In this document: positions 1,699 to 8,537 of the stretch, one piece after another | How the letters are laid out: every line of letters begins with the position of its first letter | Position numbering within the stretch: the first letter of the stretch is position 1 | Translations under genes and position numbers: made by a program | Origin: Desulforamulus reducens MI-1 | GTDB lineage: Bacteria; Bacillota; Desulfotomaculia; Desulfotomaculales; Desulfotomaculaceae | Reading direction: 5' to 3' | DNA: 64,000 nt | Assembly: GCF_000016165.1 (NCBI RefSeq) | Contig: NC_009253.1 | Coordinates: forward strand, 1,894,332 to 1,958,331 | Notes under the pieces: generated by a model | What the model was told of the DNA's origin: nothing | Seen by the model: the letters and a program-made list of their open reading frames with translations, nothing else | Databases searched by the model: none

Positions 1699-3162
1699 TT
1701 GGATATTAAGGTCCAGCCAAGGCCAATGGAAGGGGAAGGTAATTTAGCAGAAGCATTGGAGAAGCTATTTATAGACGAATGGGGTGGTCCCAAGAATCCC
1801 CTGGCCCTTGCCTATTTAAGGGGGACCGTAATTCCTGATCTAATCCATTGCATCAAGAAAAACTGGATTTTTTTAGAGAATAAAACCTTTCAAGAAATTC
1901 TTAGTTCTAAACTCAACACACAGTTTGCTTACCCTCCTGCCTTTGCCGACGGCCTTGCTGGAGAAATCTTGGACTGTGCCAAGCATGTTTTAGGAACCAG
2001 TCCCTTGGCCAATCCTCATCCCTGGCAACCCTGGGAGATTATTTTACGAATGTTTACCATTGGTTATGGTTTGCCTGAAATCGTCCAAAGAACCGGTTAC
2101 CCCGAGGCGTATCTGAATGTTATTTGTAAAAGGTACCATGTTTTGCAGAAGGCTCTAGAACTATTGGGAAAGCCATCTGAAGAACAATTGTATTCCTTTC
2201 TGGAAAAAAACGGCGGCAGCTTGTATTTAATTCGTTTTATGGTGGACTTCCAAAACCGATTTCATGTGTGCAAAAATTATTATGAGCAGCTGCATGCTCA
2301 ACAAATCATTATGGATGTTGAGCTAAATATTGATCCTGACTTATTAATTCGCCTTTTCGAAGGCTTATTTGAGGTTGAAAGAATGGTTAGCCAAGAACGT
2401 TATACCGATTTACTAAAAGGTGCAAAAACTGCCTGGTTAACGGGTGAAAGTTATTATACTAAAACAAAGGGTTACGGACTTCTGCATGACTGGCCTAAAA
2501 AGCAGATTGTCACTTTGTTGGATCGACTACAGGAATGCAATTTAATTTTACAGGATAGTATTCACGAACATCAACTCACCCTCTCGGAGCAAGCTGCCCG
2601 CCTCATTTTACCACAAGTGGTTCCGCTGTTGGCAGATGAAGTTCAAAACATCCTGCGCAGCAAAGCCCGGGATAAAATCTCCCGCAGTACAGCAATCTTG
2701 CAGGGCAAGAACCCTGAAGTAACAGTGCATATTATTAAAGAATTGGTTCGCCGGCAAGATCCCAGTGTGATTATTTGTTTTAAAGCTTTACAACGGAGAG
2801 TACCAAAAAAAGTATTTTTACAGATTATCTGGGCCTGCGGTCAGTTGGGTGGAAAAGACGCCATAAGTTTGCTTTGTAAAGCTATTTTAGATCGTGACAG
2901 CTTAGTGCGCCTAAGGACCTGTCAGGCCATGGGCCAAATGGCAGAACCCTCCTTTTATTTTTGCTTGATTGGCGCCCTTGGGGACCCGGAGGTTATGGTT
3001 AGGGAACAGGCGGTCCGGGCCCTGGGAAATTTAAAAATGCCCAGTGCTCTAAAGCATTTAGAACATCTGATTAATAACCCCGGAGAGGAGCCGCAGGTTC
3101 AACGGGCGGCCAGGGACACAAGGTTAATTTTATTGCAAGAAAAGAATCTTGAAAAGAATTAA
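1699..3162 (+). CDS. HEAT-repeat protein of unknown function
   Basis: The 487-residue protein starts at TTG 1699 with a GGGGGATG ribosome site 8 bases upstream; no ATG fits. It is soluble with no signal peptide. The C-terminal third (about residues 330-480) shows HEAT/PBS-lyase-type helical repeats, for example LVRLRTCQAMGQMA and MVREQAVRALGNL. The N-terminal 300 residues match no domain I recognise. HEAT arrays are usually protein-protein scaffolds. It lies alone between the germination operon and trxB, so context gives no function. Confidence 0.7.
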   Translation: MDIKVQPRPMEGEGNLAEALEKLFIDEWGGPKNPLALAYLRGTVIPDLIHCIKKNWIFLENKTFQEILSSKLNTQFAYPPAFADGLAGEILDCAKHVLGTSPLANPHPWQPWEIILRMFTIGYGLPEIVQRTGYPEAYLNVICKRYHVLQKALELLGKPSEEQLYSFLEKNGGSLYLIRFMVDFQNRFHVCKNYYEQLHAQQIIMDVELNIDPDLLIRLFEGLFEVERMVSQERYTDLLKGAKTAWLTGESYYTKTKGYGLLHDWPKKQIVTLLDRLQECNLILQDSIHEHQLTLSEQAARLILPQVVPLLADEVQNILRSKARDKISRSTAILQGKNPEVTVHIIKELVRRQDPSVIICFKALQRRVPKKVFLQIIWACGQLGGKDAISLLCKAILDRDSLVRLRTCQAMGQMAEPSFYFCLIGALGDPEVMVREQAVRALGNLKMPSALKHLEHLINNPGEEPQVQRAARDTRLILLQEKNLEKN

Positions 3163-3200
3163 TTCTTAATTCTTACATTTTAACTTTCTTAAACAGTTAC

Positions 3201-3230
3201 TTGACGGAGTATTTTTGCAAATGAGATAAT
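3201..3230 (+). promoter_or_regulatory. SigA-type promoter of trxB
   Basis: TTGACG at 3201-3206 and GATAAT at 3225-3230 are separated by 18 bases. The pair lies about 60 bases upstream of the trxB start and is a near-consensus vegetative promoter. Confidence 0.7.
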
Positions 3231-3292
3231 AATCAAGTAATATAAAATTTAAGCCATTTCAACAAAGTGACAATTAATAGGAGGTGCATGTT

Positions 3293-4216
3293 TTGCTAGA
3301 AAAGGAATTGGTTATTATCGGCGGGGGACCAGCCGGGTATGCGGCCGGTCTTTATGCTGCCCGAGCTGATATAAATAGTGTTCTAATTGAGAGAGGAATG
3401 CCTGGTGGTCAGGCTGCCGCCACCGAGTGGATTGAGAACTATCCGGGGTTTCCAGGGGGTATCGGCGGGATTGAATTAGCCATGAAAATGGATGAGCAAG
3501 CTAGATCCTTTGGGTTGGAAGTTACGATGACTGATGTAAGTAAACTGGAACTACAGGGCAGTGAATTTATTGTGTTCACGGGTCAAGAAACCATAAAAAC
3601 AAAAACCGTGATCGTAGCCTCTGGCTCTAAGCCTCAATTTTTAGGTGTCGAAGGCGAAGGGAAATTTCATGGTCGCGGGGTTTCCTATTGTGCAACCTGT
3701 GATGGGGCATTTTTTCGTGATAAAACCGTAGCAGTGGTTGGCGGCGGCGATGCAGCGGTGGAGGAAGCACTTTTTTTAACTAAGTTTGCTGCTAAAGTAT
3801 ACATTATTCACCGCAGAGGCGAGTTGCGTGCTACAAAACTTATTCAAAAACGTGCCATGGCCAATGATAAAATTGCTTTTCTCTGGCACTCTGTAGTAGA
3901 CGATATTTTAGGAGATAGCAAAGTGGAATCAATAAGAATTAAAGATGTTCGTACTGACGAGCTGTCTACTATACCCGTTGATGGTGTATTTATTTATGTG
4001 GGAACCCGGGCAAACTCAGAACTGATAAAGGACTTGGTTGAAATGGACTCCCGTGGTTATATCCTGGCAAATGAGAAAATGCAAACATCCGTTCCGGGAT
4101 TGTACGTTGCTGGTGATGTTCGACAAAAATCCCTGCGTCAGGTCGTTACTGCTGTGGCAGACGGAGCCATTGCCGCCATGGAAGTAGAAAAATATCTGGC
4201 ATCGTTGGAGGAATAA
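3293..4216 (+). CDS. trxB: Thioredoxin reductase
   Basis: NADPH-dependent flavoenzyme that reduces thioredoxin. The FAD motif GGGPAGY is at the N-terminus and the redox CATC lies in SYCATCDG. The NADPH glycine motif GGGDAA is followed by HRR, and the second FAD motif GLYVAGD is near the end. Length is 307 residues, normal for the family. The TTG at 3293 is preferred because AGGAGGTG ends 6 bases before it; a GTG at 3284 lies inside that ribosome site. It has its own SigA promoter and appears monocistronic. Confidence 0.93.
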   Translation: MLEKELVIIGGGPAGYAAGLYAARADINSVLIERGMPGGQAAATEWIENYPGFPGGIGGIELAMKMDEQARSFGLEVTMTDVSKLELQGSEFIVFTGQETIKTKTVIVASGSKPQFLGVEGEGKFHGRGVSYCATCDGAFFRDKTVAVVGGGDAAVEEALFLTKFAAKVYIIHRRGELRATKLIQKRAMANDKIAFLWHSVVDDILGDSKVESIRIKDVRTDELSTIPVDGVFIYVGTRANSELIKDLVEMDSRGYILANEKMQTSVPGLYVAGDVRQKSLRQVVTAVADGAIAAMEVEKYLASLEE

Positions 4217-4228
4217 GAACAAAAAAAA

Positions 4229-4252
4229 GCTGTATCCTAGGTTAGATACAGC
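4229..4252 (-). terminator. Hairpin with T-run on the reverse strand
   Basis: GCTGTATC and GATACAGC form an 8-bp stem. On the forward strand it has no T-run after it but is preceded by eight A residues, so it would work as an intrinsic terminator for reverse-strand transcription. Confidence 0.4.
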
Positions 4253-4347
4253 GAGAAAGGGAGAGGAGATTAGGTTGAGTACTCAACCTACCTTAAGTAG
4301 TATATCCAATAAGCAAAATATTATTTATTTGTAACATAGAATTTATG

Positions 4348-4376
4348 CCGCTACGGAACTTCCGTGGCGGTTTTTT
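4348..4376 (+). terminator. Intrinsic terminator downstream of trxB
   Basis: CCGCTACGGAA pairs with TTCCGTGGCGG (one G-T wobble) over a two-base loop and is followed by six T residues. It sits just before the next promoter. Confidence 0.8.
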
Positions 4377-4380
4377 ATAC

Positions 4381-4409
4381 TTGTAACAAATGGCATTATA
4401 AAGTATAAT
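4381..4409 (+). promoter_or_regulatory. SigA-type promoter of the ATPase/winged-helix pair
   Basis: TTGTAA at 4381-4386, a 17-base spacer and TATAAT at 4404-4409. Transcription would begin near 4416, which rules out an ATG at 4408 as the ATPase start. Confidence 0.7.
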
Positions 4410-4446
4410 GCTTACAAACATATGTTCTAGATTGGGGGTGTTAAAC

Positions 4447-6300
4447 ATGATGGATATTGGTTGGCATAAAATTCTGAGCTTAAAGGTTCAAGGTGGCTTT
4501 TTAGATGGAGAGGTCATTCATTTTAATCCCCATTTAAATTGTTTAATTGGAGGACGAGGTTCCGGAAAAACCACTGTGATTGAAATGCTTCGTTTTGCCT
4601 TGGATGCCTATCCCCCTGGAACTGGCATCAGTAAAAGATTACAACAACATTTGGCAGGTGTTTTAAATGGAGGCAGCATCAGTGTTTTCTTAGAAACCGC
4701 CGGCGGTGAACGGTATAACATAGAAAGATCGGGTTTGACCCATGTCATCAGAGTTACCGATGCTCAGGGAAGAATCATATCAAGGGAAACTGTTCCTAAA
4801 ATTCCATTCGGGGCAGCTATCTATGGACAAAGCGAACTAGAACAGCTGGCCGATGATCCGGAGGCACAGTTATTGATCATCGATGGCAAAAGTTCTTCTA
4901 TTCCTTTGATTAAAACAAGGATAGAAAATAGTCTTAAAAGATTAGATGAAAACCGTACAAAATTGGCAGATCATATTTTAGAAACCTATGATATAAGCAG
5001 TCAAGTTGCTCAACTGCCAGAAATTAAAAAACGTTTACAAGAACTTGCTGGAAAAGACTTGGATGGTTTAATTCAAAGACAACGAAAAAGGGAACGTGAA
5101 AGAATCTATCTATCCGACCTAAAAAGATCTCTAAAACTTTATGTTCAGCAAAATAAGCCCTGTGTGCCAATGCCCTTGCCAATGCAAGAAGAAGAATCTG
5201 CTTTTGAATTCCTGGAACAGGCCCAACAAGTGTACCAAGAGACTAGCCAAGCGACGGCAAAATTTTTAAAGCAAGTAACCTATCTTTGGCAAAATGCCCT
5301 GATTCAACTGGAAGAAATCATGAAAAATATGACTATCAGACATCAGGAGGAAGAACTACAAGACCAAAAAATGCGAGCAAACCTACCGGGGAGAGGACTC
5401 AATGAGGTACTGGCTGAGCGGACCCGCCTAACCTCCCTGGTGTTGGAATTGGAAAATCTGCTGGGAGTACTGATGGAAAGGGAACAAGAAATCAACTCTT
5501 TAAAGATAAAAAGAGAAGAGATGCATGATGAAATTGCACAATTAAAGAAAGACCTTTACTCGGAACGTCAAAAGGTATGCCAAACAATAAACAAGGCACT
5601 GGGTCCTGGCATACAAATAGATTTAATTCAAGGAGGTAACTTGCATTGCTTTAAAAATGCACTGTTAAATTTGTTACATCGCTCTAACCTGCACTACCAT
5701 CGCTGGGTAGATCTCCTGGTGGAGCATTTAACACCTATGGAATTGGTCCAAATCATAAAAGACCAAGATTACTCATCCATAGAACAATACTGTTCTATGG
5801 ATAGAGAAAGGTCTCGGCGCTTGGTGAACTTTTTGTCAATTAATATGTCCCAGGAAGACTTACTAAAATTGGAGGACGTTTGGTTGGAGGATTTACCCCG
5901 GTTACGACTTCAGGACGGAGAAATGTATAAATCTATGAACCAATTGTCCAAAGGGCAGAAATGTACAACAGTCCTGCCTTTATTACTAATGAATGATGCA
6001 CGTCCGCTCATAATTGATCAACCGGAGGATCATTTAGATAATTCTTATATATCTCAAACGGTGGTACCCACACTAAAAAAGGTAAAGCTTCACCGCCAAG
6101 TAATTTTTGCCACGCACAACCCAAACATCCCGGTCTTGGGGGAGGCTGAAAATAATCTAATTCTCAGTTCTGACGGGAATCGAGGCTATTTAAGCTGTCA
6201 AGGGGACATGGCTATTAAAGAAGTTAATCGGGCTCTCCAGCGGGTATTGGAAGGAGGACCAGATGCTTTAAGGGGTAGGCTGGTAAAATATGATAGATAA
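4447..6300 (+). CDS. SMC/TrlF-like AAA ATPase with coiled-coil centre
   Basis: The protein has about 617 residues. An N-terminal ATPase half carries Walker A GGRGSGKTT near residue 38 in the setting HFNPHLNCLIGG typical of SMC/RecF-like proteins. The middle (about residues 160-400) is charged and helical, likely coiled coil. The C-terminal half has the ABC-type signature LSKGQK, the extended Walker B PLIIDQPEDHLDN and the switch histidine in FATHNPN. This Walker B form is typical of TrlF-like and other mobile or defence-associated ABC ATPases. No nuclease, PHP or TOPRIM domain is attached. Start chosen at ATG 4447 after TTGGGGGTG. It overlaps the next gene by 11 bases, so the two products probably act together. 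Confidence 0.8.
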   Translation: MMDIGWHKILSLKVQGGFLDGEVIHFNPHLNCLIGGRGSGKTTVIEMLRFALDAYPPGTGISKRLQQHLAGVLNGGSISVFLETAGGERYNIERSGLTHVIRVTDAQGRIISRETVPKIPFGAAIYGQSELEQLADDPEAQLLIIDGKSSSIPLIKTRIENSLKRLDENRTKLADHILETYDISSQVAQLPEIKKRLQELAGKDLDGLIQRQRKRERERIYLSDLKRSLKLYVQQNKPCVPMPLPMQEEESAFEFLEQAQQVYQETSQATAKFLKQVTYLWQNALIQLEEIMKNMTIRHQEEELQDQKMRANLPGRGLNEVLAERTRLTSLVLELENLLGVLMEREQEINSLKIKREEMHDEIAQLKKDLYSERQKVCQTINKALGPGIQIDLIQGGNLHCFKNALLNLLHRSNLHYHRWVDLLVEHLTPMELVQIIKDQDYSSIEQYCSMDRERSRRLVNFLSINMSQEDLLKLEDVWLEDLPRLRLQDGEMYKSMNQLSKGQKCTTVLPLLLMNDARPLIIDQPEDHLDNSYISQTVVPTLKKVKLHRQVIFATHNPNIPVLGEAENNLILSSDGNRGYLSCQGDMAIKEVNRALQRVLEGGPDALRGRLVKYDR

Positions 6301-7015
6301 AAATGAACAGCCAAAATGTAATAAAAATGAAAAAGTCCTTAGTGCCCTGTTAAGACATCCACAGTATAGCTGCCGCCGTAGGGCCATTGGATTGCTCGCT
6401 CATAAGAAAGACCTTACAACGCTGGAGGAAGTCTTAGGGGAGATTGAATCCTTTCCTGAAGATGTTCGCATGTCGGTTTTAACTTGGATTCGGAATTGGC
6501 ACTGGGCCAGAGGAGCCCAGCCGGGGAGCAAAATTCTAAAGTTATGTCTTGCTTTAATGAATAGTCAAGACAGACAAATCGCTGAGGAAGTAAGTAACCT
6601 ATTGATAAAAATCAGTACCCAGGATTTTTCTGAGTTACGAGAGGAAAGGATGTCTTATGCACTTTCTGATAGGGTAAAGGATAACCCTGCAAAGCTACAA
6701 GAGAAAATGGTTAAATTAATCATTGATCAAGTAAAACAGGAGATTTGGCTAGGAGAAAGGAATCTGGCATTGACCCGTGCACAGGTAAAGATACTCCTTC
6801 GTTTATCATATAGTCCAGGGATCTTTGTTTCTCCAGATTTATTATACGGGGCAATCTATGGGGAATCGTCAGGAATCCCAGGAGACATCAAAAGTCATAT
6901 CAAAAACATCCGCAAGGCCCTGGGAGATAGTAAAGAAAAGCAGCTTTATATCGAAAGTGGCCGAGCCCGGGGATATCGTTTGGTAAAGGGAAATGTGAAC
7001 ATCCTTAGAGCATAA
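6290..7015 (+). CDS. Winged-helix (OmpR C-terminal type) protein with helical N-terminal domain
   Basis: A 241-residue protein translationally coupled to the ATPase gene (11-base overlap). Residues 1-140 are all-helical with HEAT-like character, for example YSCRRRAIGLLAHKKD near residue 28. Residues about 155-235 form a Trans_reg_C winged helix: LTRAQVKILLRLSYSPG, then SDIKSHIKNIRKALGD-like recognition helix (written GDIKSHIKNIRKALGD in this protein) and the wing IESGRARGYRLVK. There is no receiver domain with phospho-Asp, so it is not a standard response regulator. It could be the DNA-binding partner or regulator of the ATPase. Confidence 0.75.
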   Translation: MIDKNEQPKCNKNEKVLSALLRHPQYSCRRRAIGLLAHKKDLTTLEEVLGEIESFPEDVRMSVLTWIRNWHWARGAQPGSKILKLCLALMNSQDRQIAEEVSNLLIKISTQDFSELREERMSYALSDRVKDNPAKLQEKMVKLIIDQVKQEIWLGERNLALTRAQVKILLRLSYSPGIFVSPDLLYGAIYGESSGIPGDIKSHIKNIRKALGDSKEKQLYIESGRARGYRLVKGNVNILRA

Positions 7016-7049
7016 AACCACGCTGTTATTTTTTCAGCGTGGTTTTAAT
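7016..7049 (+). terminator. Intrinsic terminator of the ATPase/winged-helix unit
   Basis: AACCACGCTG pairs perfectly with CAGCGTGGTT over a T-rich loop and is followed by TTAATTTTT. It begins immediately after the stop codon. Confidence 0.85.
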
Positions 7050-7209
7050 TTTTGACAATTAATAACCTTAAATGTAGGTTACCCCATATTTACCAGGCTA
7101 CTAAATATTCCACCAAGGATCTCCCTATAAAACACTTTTCCCCGCTGGATTTCACCATAAATCCACCGGAATGTCATAAAGTTAGGTTAAAAAACGAGGA
7201 GTGAAACAA

Positions 7210-7755
7210 ATGGTAAAGGAACATAAAAGGGATTTTGATCAACCAATTTTATATTTTTGTCCTACTTATTTACCCCAGGGGGATGGAACAATCATTATGT
7301 ATACCAATGGAGATCAGTATACCGATTCGAGAAATATTCGGAGTATCCGTCGGGCCCTTTGTCGATATTATGCACTGGATTACTCCGCCCTGCGTAGCAA
7401 GTGGCGTAATCACTGTAATATAGGCCTTGCTCCTTTACTGTTGGCCCCAGGGTATGTACTAATTCCTGTGAAAACAAGAATTGCTCGGTGCAAAGGGGAT
7501 CCCTGCTATGCCTTTGTTAACCTACACTATATAGACTCTGTCCTGGCTTGCGGCGAACAGATCACAGGGTCAACCATCCTATTCAAAAATGGTGCCAGGC
7601 TAGGTTGTCATAACGGACTCAAGAACATTAAGAATAAAATGCTGGCAGCAAAAGCAATTGAAAGGATTTATTGTGATTCCAGATACACCAATCAGGGATT
7701 AGAAGAGGTATTCTATCGAATTATTGAAATGTTCAAACAGGAAAAAGGTAGTTAA
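7210..7755 (+). CDS. ComK-like protein
   Basis: A 181-residue protein. ATG 7210 is chosen because GAGGAG lies 7 bases upstream; a GTG at 7201 lies within that site. The central part resembles the competence transcription factor ComK: a CRYY..DYSA.R segment, then PLLLAPGYVLIPVKT, then FVNLHYIDSV, then a strand-turn ILFKNGARL and an asparagine-rich NIKNKM helix. In Bacillus ComK is a minor-groove DNA-binding activator of DNA uptake genes. No competence genes are nearby. The assignment is by motif order from memory and is not proven. Confidence 0.55.
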   Translation: MVKEHKRDFDQPILYFCPTYLPQGDGTIIMYTNGDQYTDSRNIRSIRRALCRYYALDYSALRSKWRNHCNIGLAPLLLAPGYVLIPVKTRIARCKGDPCYAFVNLHYIDSVLACGEQITGSTILFKNGARLGCHNGLKNIKNKMLAAKAIERIYCDSRYTNQGLEEVFYRIIEMFKQEKGS

Positions 7756-7850
7756 CCTTGAATATATCTGCTAGAACCATGAAGCTTGTTTGCGTTAAAA
7801 TAATCTGTGGTTAAACTGTAATTAGAATAATAGAACCTGGAGTGATGTAA

Positions 7851-8537
7851 GTGAAACTTACCTTTTTAGGCCATTCAGCATTTTTACTGGAAAACCAGGA
7901 GGTGTCCCTTGTAATTGATCCTTTTTTAACCGGTAACCCCATGGCACCCCACGATATTCCTGTTAAACCCAATTATATTCTGGTTAGCCATGGTCATGGC
8001 GACCACCTTGGCGATGCCATAAGACTTGCCAAAGAAACCTCTGCAACCATTGTATCCGTCTTTGAACTGGCTAATTATTGTGCCCGGCAGGGGGTCTTGA
8101 CACACCCTATGCATATTGGCGGTTCCCATAATTTTGGTCCTATGAAAGTAAAATTGACCCAAGCATTACATGGGAATTCTACTGGCAGTGACAGGGGACC
8201 GGCAGAATATCTTGGCAATCCCTGTGGTTTTTTAATTTATTTGGGCAATAAAACCATTTATCATGCCGGTGATACAGGACTCTTTGGGGATATGCAACTG
8301 ATAGGCGACTTAAATAGTATTGATGTGGCCCTGCTCCCCATTGGGGATAATTTTACTATGGGACCCACAGATGCCTTAGAAGCGGTTAAAATGTTAAAGC
8401 CCCAAAGGGTTATTCCCATGCACTATAACACTTGGCCTCTAATAAGTCAGGACCCAACGGCCTTTAAAAAGGCAGTGGAGCAGGCAACAACCACACAAGT
8501 TGATATCCTGCAGCCCGGAGAATTTCTAAAAATATAA
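7851..8537 (+). CDS. UPF0173 metal-dependent hydrolase (metallo-beta-lactamase fold)
   Basis: A 228-residue cytoplasmic metallo-beta-lactamase-fold protein of the UPF0173 (YtkL) group. The metal motif VSHGHGDHLGD is near residue 46. Further ligands lie in LHGNSTG, HAGDTG and MHYNTWP, in the order expected. The N-terminus MKLTFLGHSAF is diagnostic of the family. The GTG start at 7851 follows GGAGTGATG. The physiological substrate of this family is not known. It ends at a bidirectional terminator. Confidence 0.9.
   Translation: MKLTFLGHSAFLLENQEVSLVIDPFLTGNPMAPHDIPVKPNYILVSHGHGDHLGDAIRLAKETSATIVSVFELANYCARQGVLTHPMHIGGSHNFGPMKVKLTQALHGNSTGSDRGPAEYLGNPCGFLIYLGNKTIYHAGDTGLFGDMQLIGDLNSIDVALLPIGDNFTMGPTDALEAVKMLKPQRVIPMHYNTWPLISQDPTAFKKAVEQATTTQVDILQPGEFLKI

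Follow-up and report, generated by a model that had tools for sequence, protein, structure and literature searches.

Most of what is known of TrlF-family ATPases comes from defence or conflict genes that include a PHP region. RecN, an ABC ATPase of SMC-like type with ties to DNA damage, also bears a likeness to the ATPase described here. ABC ATPases were reportedly classified in a 2020 NAR study. According to PMC7554251, the name TrlF refers to temperature restriction in Photorhabdus.

The locus analysed here lies in a stretch of 64,000 nucleotides (the window) from the 3,608,104-base, single-contig genome of Desulforamulus reducens MI-1, and comprises two genes on the plus strand. The first (4447..6300) encodes a 617-aa, stand-alone TrlF-type ABC/SMC-like ATPase without a PHP region. 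The second (6290..7015) encodes a 241-aa partner with a HEAT-like N-terminal half and an OmpR/PhoB-type winged helix. No description of this pair was found in the literature searched; it represents a new branch, so far unstudied, within a family whose other members are associated with phage defence.

The entire ATPase aligned to the C-terminal two thirds of the NCBIfam TrlF model NF045780 (residues 12-615 to positions 293-943 of 944) and had the same DQPED Walker B and LSxGQ signature. The score of 278 bits was below the curated cut-off of 350; the six full-length clade proteins gave 265-291 bits, the five relatives spanning the same 265-291 range. Since the match was limited to positions 293-943, model positions 1-292, the PHP region, are missing, and, judged from this alignment, the ATPase corresponds to the ATP-binding portion of the TrlF/Ppl family and begins at the end of the N-terminal (PHP) region. 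The Pfam scan of the ATPase gave no PHP match either; the earlier note had claimed that the protein carries no effector domain. The best PADLOC match was Ppl (PDLC02208, 7.9e-32), with which the similarity lay in the C-terminal ATPase; however, the protein scored 146 bits with the Ppl model NF042955, far under the cut-off of 1000, and had no N-terminal effector region. RecN differs in that it is encoded separately in the same genomes as the pair, and its model, TIGR00634, was absent among the best 25 NCBIfam matches of the ATPase.

By motif reading, Walker A (GGRGSGKT) was located at 4549..4572, the ABC signature LSKGQK at 5944..5961, and Walker B with the D-loop, LIIDQPEDHLDN, at 6007..6042, all on the plus strand; the signature and Walker B had been named beforehand, and both are present. 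The protein also carries an ATHN motif. Walker A, the signature, Walker B (DQPED) and the H-loop were intact in 6/6 full-length clade proteins; in G008, Walker B reads DEPEV. The histidine that follows PED in the window protein is common to plasmid stand-alone ATPases.

These plasmid relatives came from a tblastn search of 72,556 plasmid records, 31 of which matched the ATPase at E ≤ 1e-20. Nine stand-alone loci were fetched, and all nine had a histidine-kinase-like gene and a receiver-kinase gene behind the ATPase. The plasmid operon (L073-L081, about 3990-8170) encodes a TrlF-type ATPase, a histidine-kinase-like protein and a receiver-APH/TCAD9 kinase, and occurs in several bacterial orders. 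PADLOC gave no match for the plasmid kinase-like proteins scanned, and we found no name for the three-gene system.

A tree of 31 ATPase regions, unrooted and with long branches, separated winged-helix-linked (6), kinase-linked (9) and long forms (16), each branch with support of at least 99/99; of the 34 loci given for the tree, nine partial ones (L058, L059, L066-L072) were dropped. Pfam detected PHP (E ≤ 0.001) in 4/10 long forms tested, so the "PHP group" of the tree is to be read as the long form. The window ATPase grouped with the plasmid stand-alone ATPases, apart from the long TrlF forms, from which it also differs in having its own partner gene and an SOS box. The histidine after PED followed the same division: it was found in 6/6 winged-helix-linked and 8/8 kinase-linked proteins read (one of the nine was unread), and in 0/16 long forms. 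The kinase-linked ATPases thus share with the window protein its size, the missing PHP region, the side of the 99/99 branch and this histidine, whereas their systems reside on plasmids and combine the ATPase with a kinase-like protein and a receiver-kinase instead of a winged helix. Simple box patterns found no SOS box in these sister systems or in the long TrlF forms (0/25), a search that would miss boxes of other types.

Operon structure, partner protein and chromosomal place

The two ORFs share 11 bases (6290-6300). A promoter-like site, TTGTAA-17-TATAAT, was identified by consensus match at 4381..4409 on the plus strand, and TATAAT likewise lay upstream of the pair in the five relatives examined. 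The ribosome-binding site, a GGGGGT region, was read from the sequence at 4434..4439 (plus strand). An in-frame ATG occurs at 4408, but the start at ATG 4447 was preferred because the SOS box and the ribosome site fall between the two. The operon ends in a hairpin at 7013..7047 on the plus strand, found by folding (-19.3 kcal/mol, z -7.1) and missed by the pattern scan because of its loop of nine bases. By a second terminator, at 4347-4371, the operon is set off from trxB upstream. The 11-base overlap, single promoter and single terminator described previously were therefore all recovered from the ORF calls, the consensus match and the folded hairpin. We also observed a perfect 8-base inverted repeat, GCATTATA-AAG-TATAATGC, at 4393-4411, which covers the -10 box; it was not found in the upstream regions of relatives. 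An Rfam scan of window positions 3000-8000 returned nothing over threshold.

In the partner, Pfam identified a Trans_reg_C winged helix (residues 157-231; 6758..6982, plus strand; 2.2e-10) and no receiver domain, also in the other family members. This agrees with the earlier reading of the protein as a DNA-binding-type winged helix lacking a receiver. Its HEAT-like character, proposed in the same place, was weak in the window protein alone (E 0.042, 14.6 bits against a Pfam cut-off of 27.7) and clearer across the family, with HEAT_2 matches in 4/6 members (E ≤ 1), the best at 1.4e-5. A single-sequence structure model had a helical N-terminus and was poor overall (mean pLDDT 46.9).

Among 113 genomes of the order, ten matched the ATPase at E ≤ 1e-30, seven as stand-alone proteins and three within frames of 894-1092 aa. 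The seven stand-alone loci belong to two genera and two families. At 6/6 contiguous loci the winged-helix partner came directly after the ATPase, and the genes overlapped at every one. At the seventh (G011), which has a frame break, the ATPase and partner sit at contig ends, the partner together with the next gene on another contig. The coupling of the two genes claimed from the window alone thus recurs in two genera, and their co-occurrence extends beyond this species. In a wider search of the phylum, at most three candidates were scored per genome, and absence counts from it are therefore weak. A scan of genome contigs with the single protein gave two weak loci, and no ATPase relatives were found in viral contigs.

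Gene order was conserved at the seven loci: a HEAT/RQC gene, trxB and the pair, with a putative Trk-type gene between the HEAT/RQC gene and trxB at three loci of genus g4. A homolog of the gene at 7201-7755 lay downstream at all seven, either directly or after an insert (G008 and G053); the foreign insert of G053, between the pair and the next gene, is of putative arsenic type. The six intact contiguous loci had conserved housekeeping neighbours and no recognisable defence genes adjoining the pair. A defence island was rejected on this gene order, the one foreign insert being that in G053.

Two genomes (G002 and G006) cleanly lack the pair at the same chromosomal place. In G005, a large deletion has left a remnant of 180 codons (L049:8780-9322, minus strand) in which the first ATPase residues run straight into the winged helix; transposase-like ORFs were seen near this decayed copy. 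Two further genomes of the genus (G003 and G007) lacked both the pair and any close copy of gene 7201-7755, to which they had distant matches at other places. Since the stand-alone form occurs in 7/113 genomes and is lost within the genus, the pair is not essential. On the dN/dS values over G001-G004 (ATPase 0.105, partner 0.179) and the gene losses, it is under purifying selection with several losses.

The LexA-type box

A LexA/SOS box, CAAACATATGTTCT, with the core AAACATATGTTC at 4416-4427, was located at 4415..4428 on the plus strand, downstream of the -10 box and ahead of the ribosome site; its motif, shared with lexA, recA and recG, resembles the Gram-positive LexA box. The form AAACANNTGTTC occurred just upstream of the ATPase at 7/7 stand-alone loci. 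In all six upstream regions compared, which otherwise share little near the promoter, the box CAAACNNNTGTTC stood in this same interval. In G011, CGAACATATGTTTG in the same place is the same box reversed. The decayed copy in G005 retained a 9/10 match to the box upstream, and the box was absent at 2/2 loci where the pair is cleanly missing.

The motif AAACANNTGTTC was also present in the lexA promoters of 6/6 genomes, before recA in five of the six, recG in four, dinB in two and uvrA in one. In the genome of the window it occurred at 14 sites, against 12 for the reversed-pattern control; eight of the 14 lay outside genes, of which two preceded a 68-aa ORF, one lay at L128 and the others stood before lexA, recA, recG, the ATPase and an integrase. 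The five relatives had 62 sites against 36 for the control, their promoter sites including recA, lexA, dinB, recG, uvrA, a repair radical-SAM protein and a spore-photolyase-like protein. Over the six genomes this makes a mild excess (76 against 48), to which six G008 sites contribute that sit inside copies of one 508-aa ORF and not in promoters. With so mild an excess, the case rests on which promoters carry the motif: the evidence for an SOS box lies, at the level of sequence, in its placement before established SOS genes and in its being conserved at the ATPase, not in its count. Ten box-associated representatives were name-checked against NCBIfam, and for seven the score or an unambiguous top match identified a repair or SOS protein. 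Two RecA proteins, LexA, Pol IV and the radical-SAM protein passed the cut-off, whereas UvrA and RecG, both cut proteins, stayed below it. The check was weaker for the spore-photolyase-like protein and the integrase, and the 68-aa ORF had no match. Control of the operon by LexA, as indicated by these promoters, is very probable and constitutes the best-supported step of our interpretation.

Two further genes with such boxes were observed. An ORF of 67-74 aa lies behind two SOS boxes in four genomes (L126:1287-1490, minus strand; L135, L161, L167) and could be a damage-induced small protein, e.g., a division inhibitor. G001 has a second RecA gene (L176:465-1511, minus strand) behind two SOS boxes and beside a putative serine-recombinase-like gene; it likely sits on a mobile element.

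Proposed function and its alternatives

The overlap and co-occurrence of the two genes make it likely that their products act jointly, and the ATPase family and the winged helix suggest that they would act on DNA. In our estimate, there is an even chance that the locus is a LexA-repressed, DNA-damage-inducible operon of an SMC/RecN-like ATPase and a DNA-docking partner for repair or chromosome upkeep. Cleavage of LexA would allow the ATPase and partner to be made together. The ATPase would dimerise on ATP like the heads of SMC, Rad50 and RecN, while the helical half of the partner would bind the ATPase and its winged helix DNA. The complex may then act on damaged or stalled chromosomal DNA in repair, tethering or fork protection. 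It would do so as an accessory to RecN and not as its replacement; the latter was rejected, as RecN was separately matched in 12/12 genomes, 11 of them over the cut-off.

As the predicted output, repair or chromosome upkeep is favoured over regulation or defence because the promoters that share the box belong to repair genes and because the locus is not a mobile one. The earlier note had left the choice between a defence, DNA-repair or chromosome-linked system; the LexA box common to recA and lexA and the fixed location point to the repair or chromosome-linked part. Regarding defence, the context, with no recognisable defence genes adjoining, lends it no support; the ATPase is related to the anti-phage Ppl. 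For defence triggered by the SOS response, the ATPase would have to detect DNA that is foreign or damaged, a capacity that other TrlF/Ppl relatives may have, and LexA would release the ATPase on infection or prophage induction. Such a role would suit the Ppl match in PADLOC and the plasmid location of the nearest relatives outside the clade. Nevertheless, we consider it unlikely, given the missing effector domain, a neighbourhood without recognisable defence genes, a fixed locus inherited in two genera, and phage records in which 0/7 matches cover 80% of the ATPase.

It is also possible, if somewhat improbable, that the pair is regulatory, with the ATPase as a sensor or switch and the partner as a transcription factor bringing additional genes under the SOS response, the winged-helix protein replacing the histidine kinase and receiver proteins of the plasmid relatives. 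The OmpR/PhoB type of the winged helix and the constant company of kinase and receiver protein in the sister clade (9/9) speak for this reading. However, the partner has no receiver domain, no partner-specific operator was identified, and gene 7201-7755 survives loss of the pair and carries no exact SOS box in any of its seven upstream regions. That the ATPase is a decaying leftover of a TrlF gene on its way out after PHP loss is highly improbable: the losses in G002 and G006, the fused remnant in G005 and the frame break in G011 would fit, but dN/dS is low, the motifs are intact, the promoter box is conserved and two genera have retained a distinct partner, all of which speaks against decay.

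Returning to repair or chromosome upkeep, we tentatively envisage an SOS-inducible DNA-maintenance machine of Desulfotomaculum-type bacteria, in which an SMC/RecN-like ATPase of the TrlF lineage, lacking the PHP region, would have been tamed from mobile conflict systems into the LexA regulon and the HEAT-like/winged-helix protein would serve as its DNA-loading subunit. If this is true, a PHP-less, chromosomally fixed and LexA-wired branch would tie the TrlF family to the DNA-damage response of the host itself, and the system lends itself to a simple test of the part that such ATPases play in repair, in defence or in both.

Neighbouring genes and a candidate small RNA

The gene at 7201-7755, whose product may be a ComK-like protein, is fast-evolving and of no recognised family, Pfam giving nothing useful. 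It was found in 12/113 genomes, all of them in the two pair-bearing genera. It may be a third member of the system, but it persists at loci that lost the pair and has no SOS box of its own. The gene at 1699-3162, which encodes HEAT repeats and has a weak RQC-like winged-helix match, precedes trxB at each of the loci looked at.

Finally, a candidate small RNA was observed on the minus strand at window positions of about 4292-4222, convergent to trxB. It consists of the C-rich AATCTCCTCTCCCTTT followed by a terminator hairpin and a T run, and matched no Rfam family over threshold. The exact 16-mer was present in 46/113 genomes of the order, with 47 matches (one genome had two) against 2 for the reversed control; trxB lay beside it in 28 of the 30 loci fetched from these 47 matches. 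Among ten sequences, 2/9 pairs of the hairpin had a two-sided change. As the C-rich stretch is complementary to ribosome-binding sites, our guess is that the RNA may be a trans-acting regulator.
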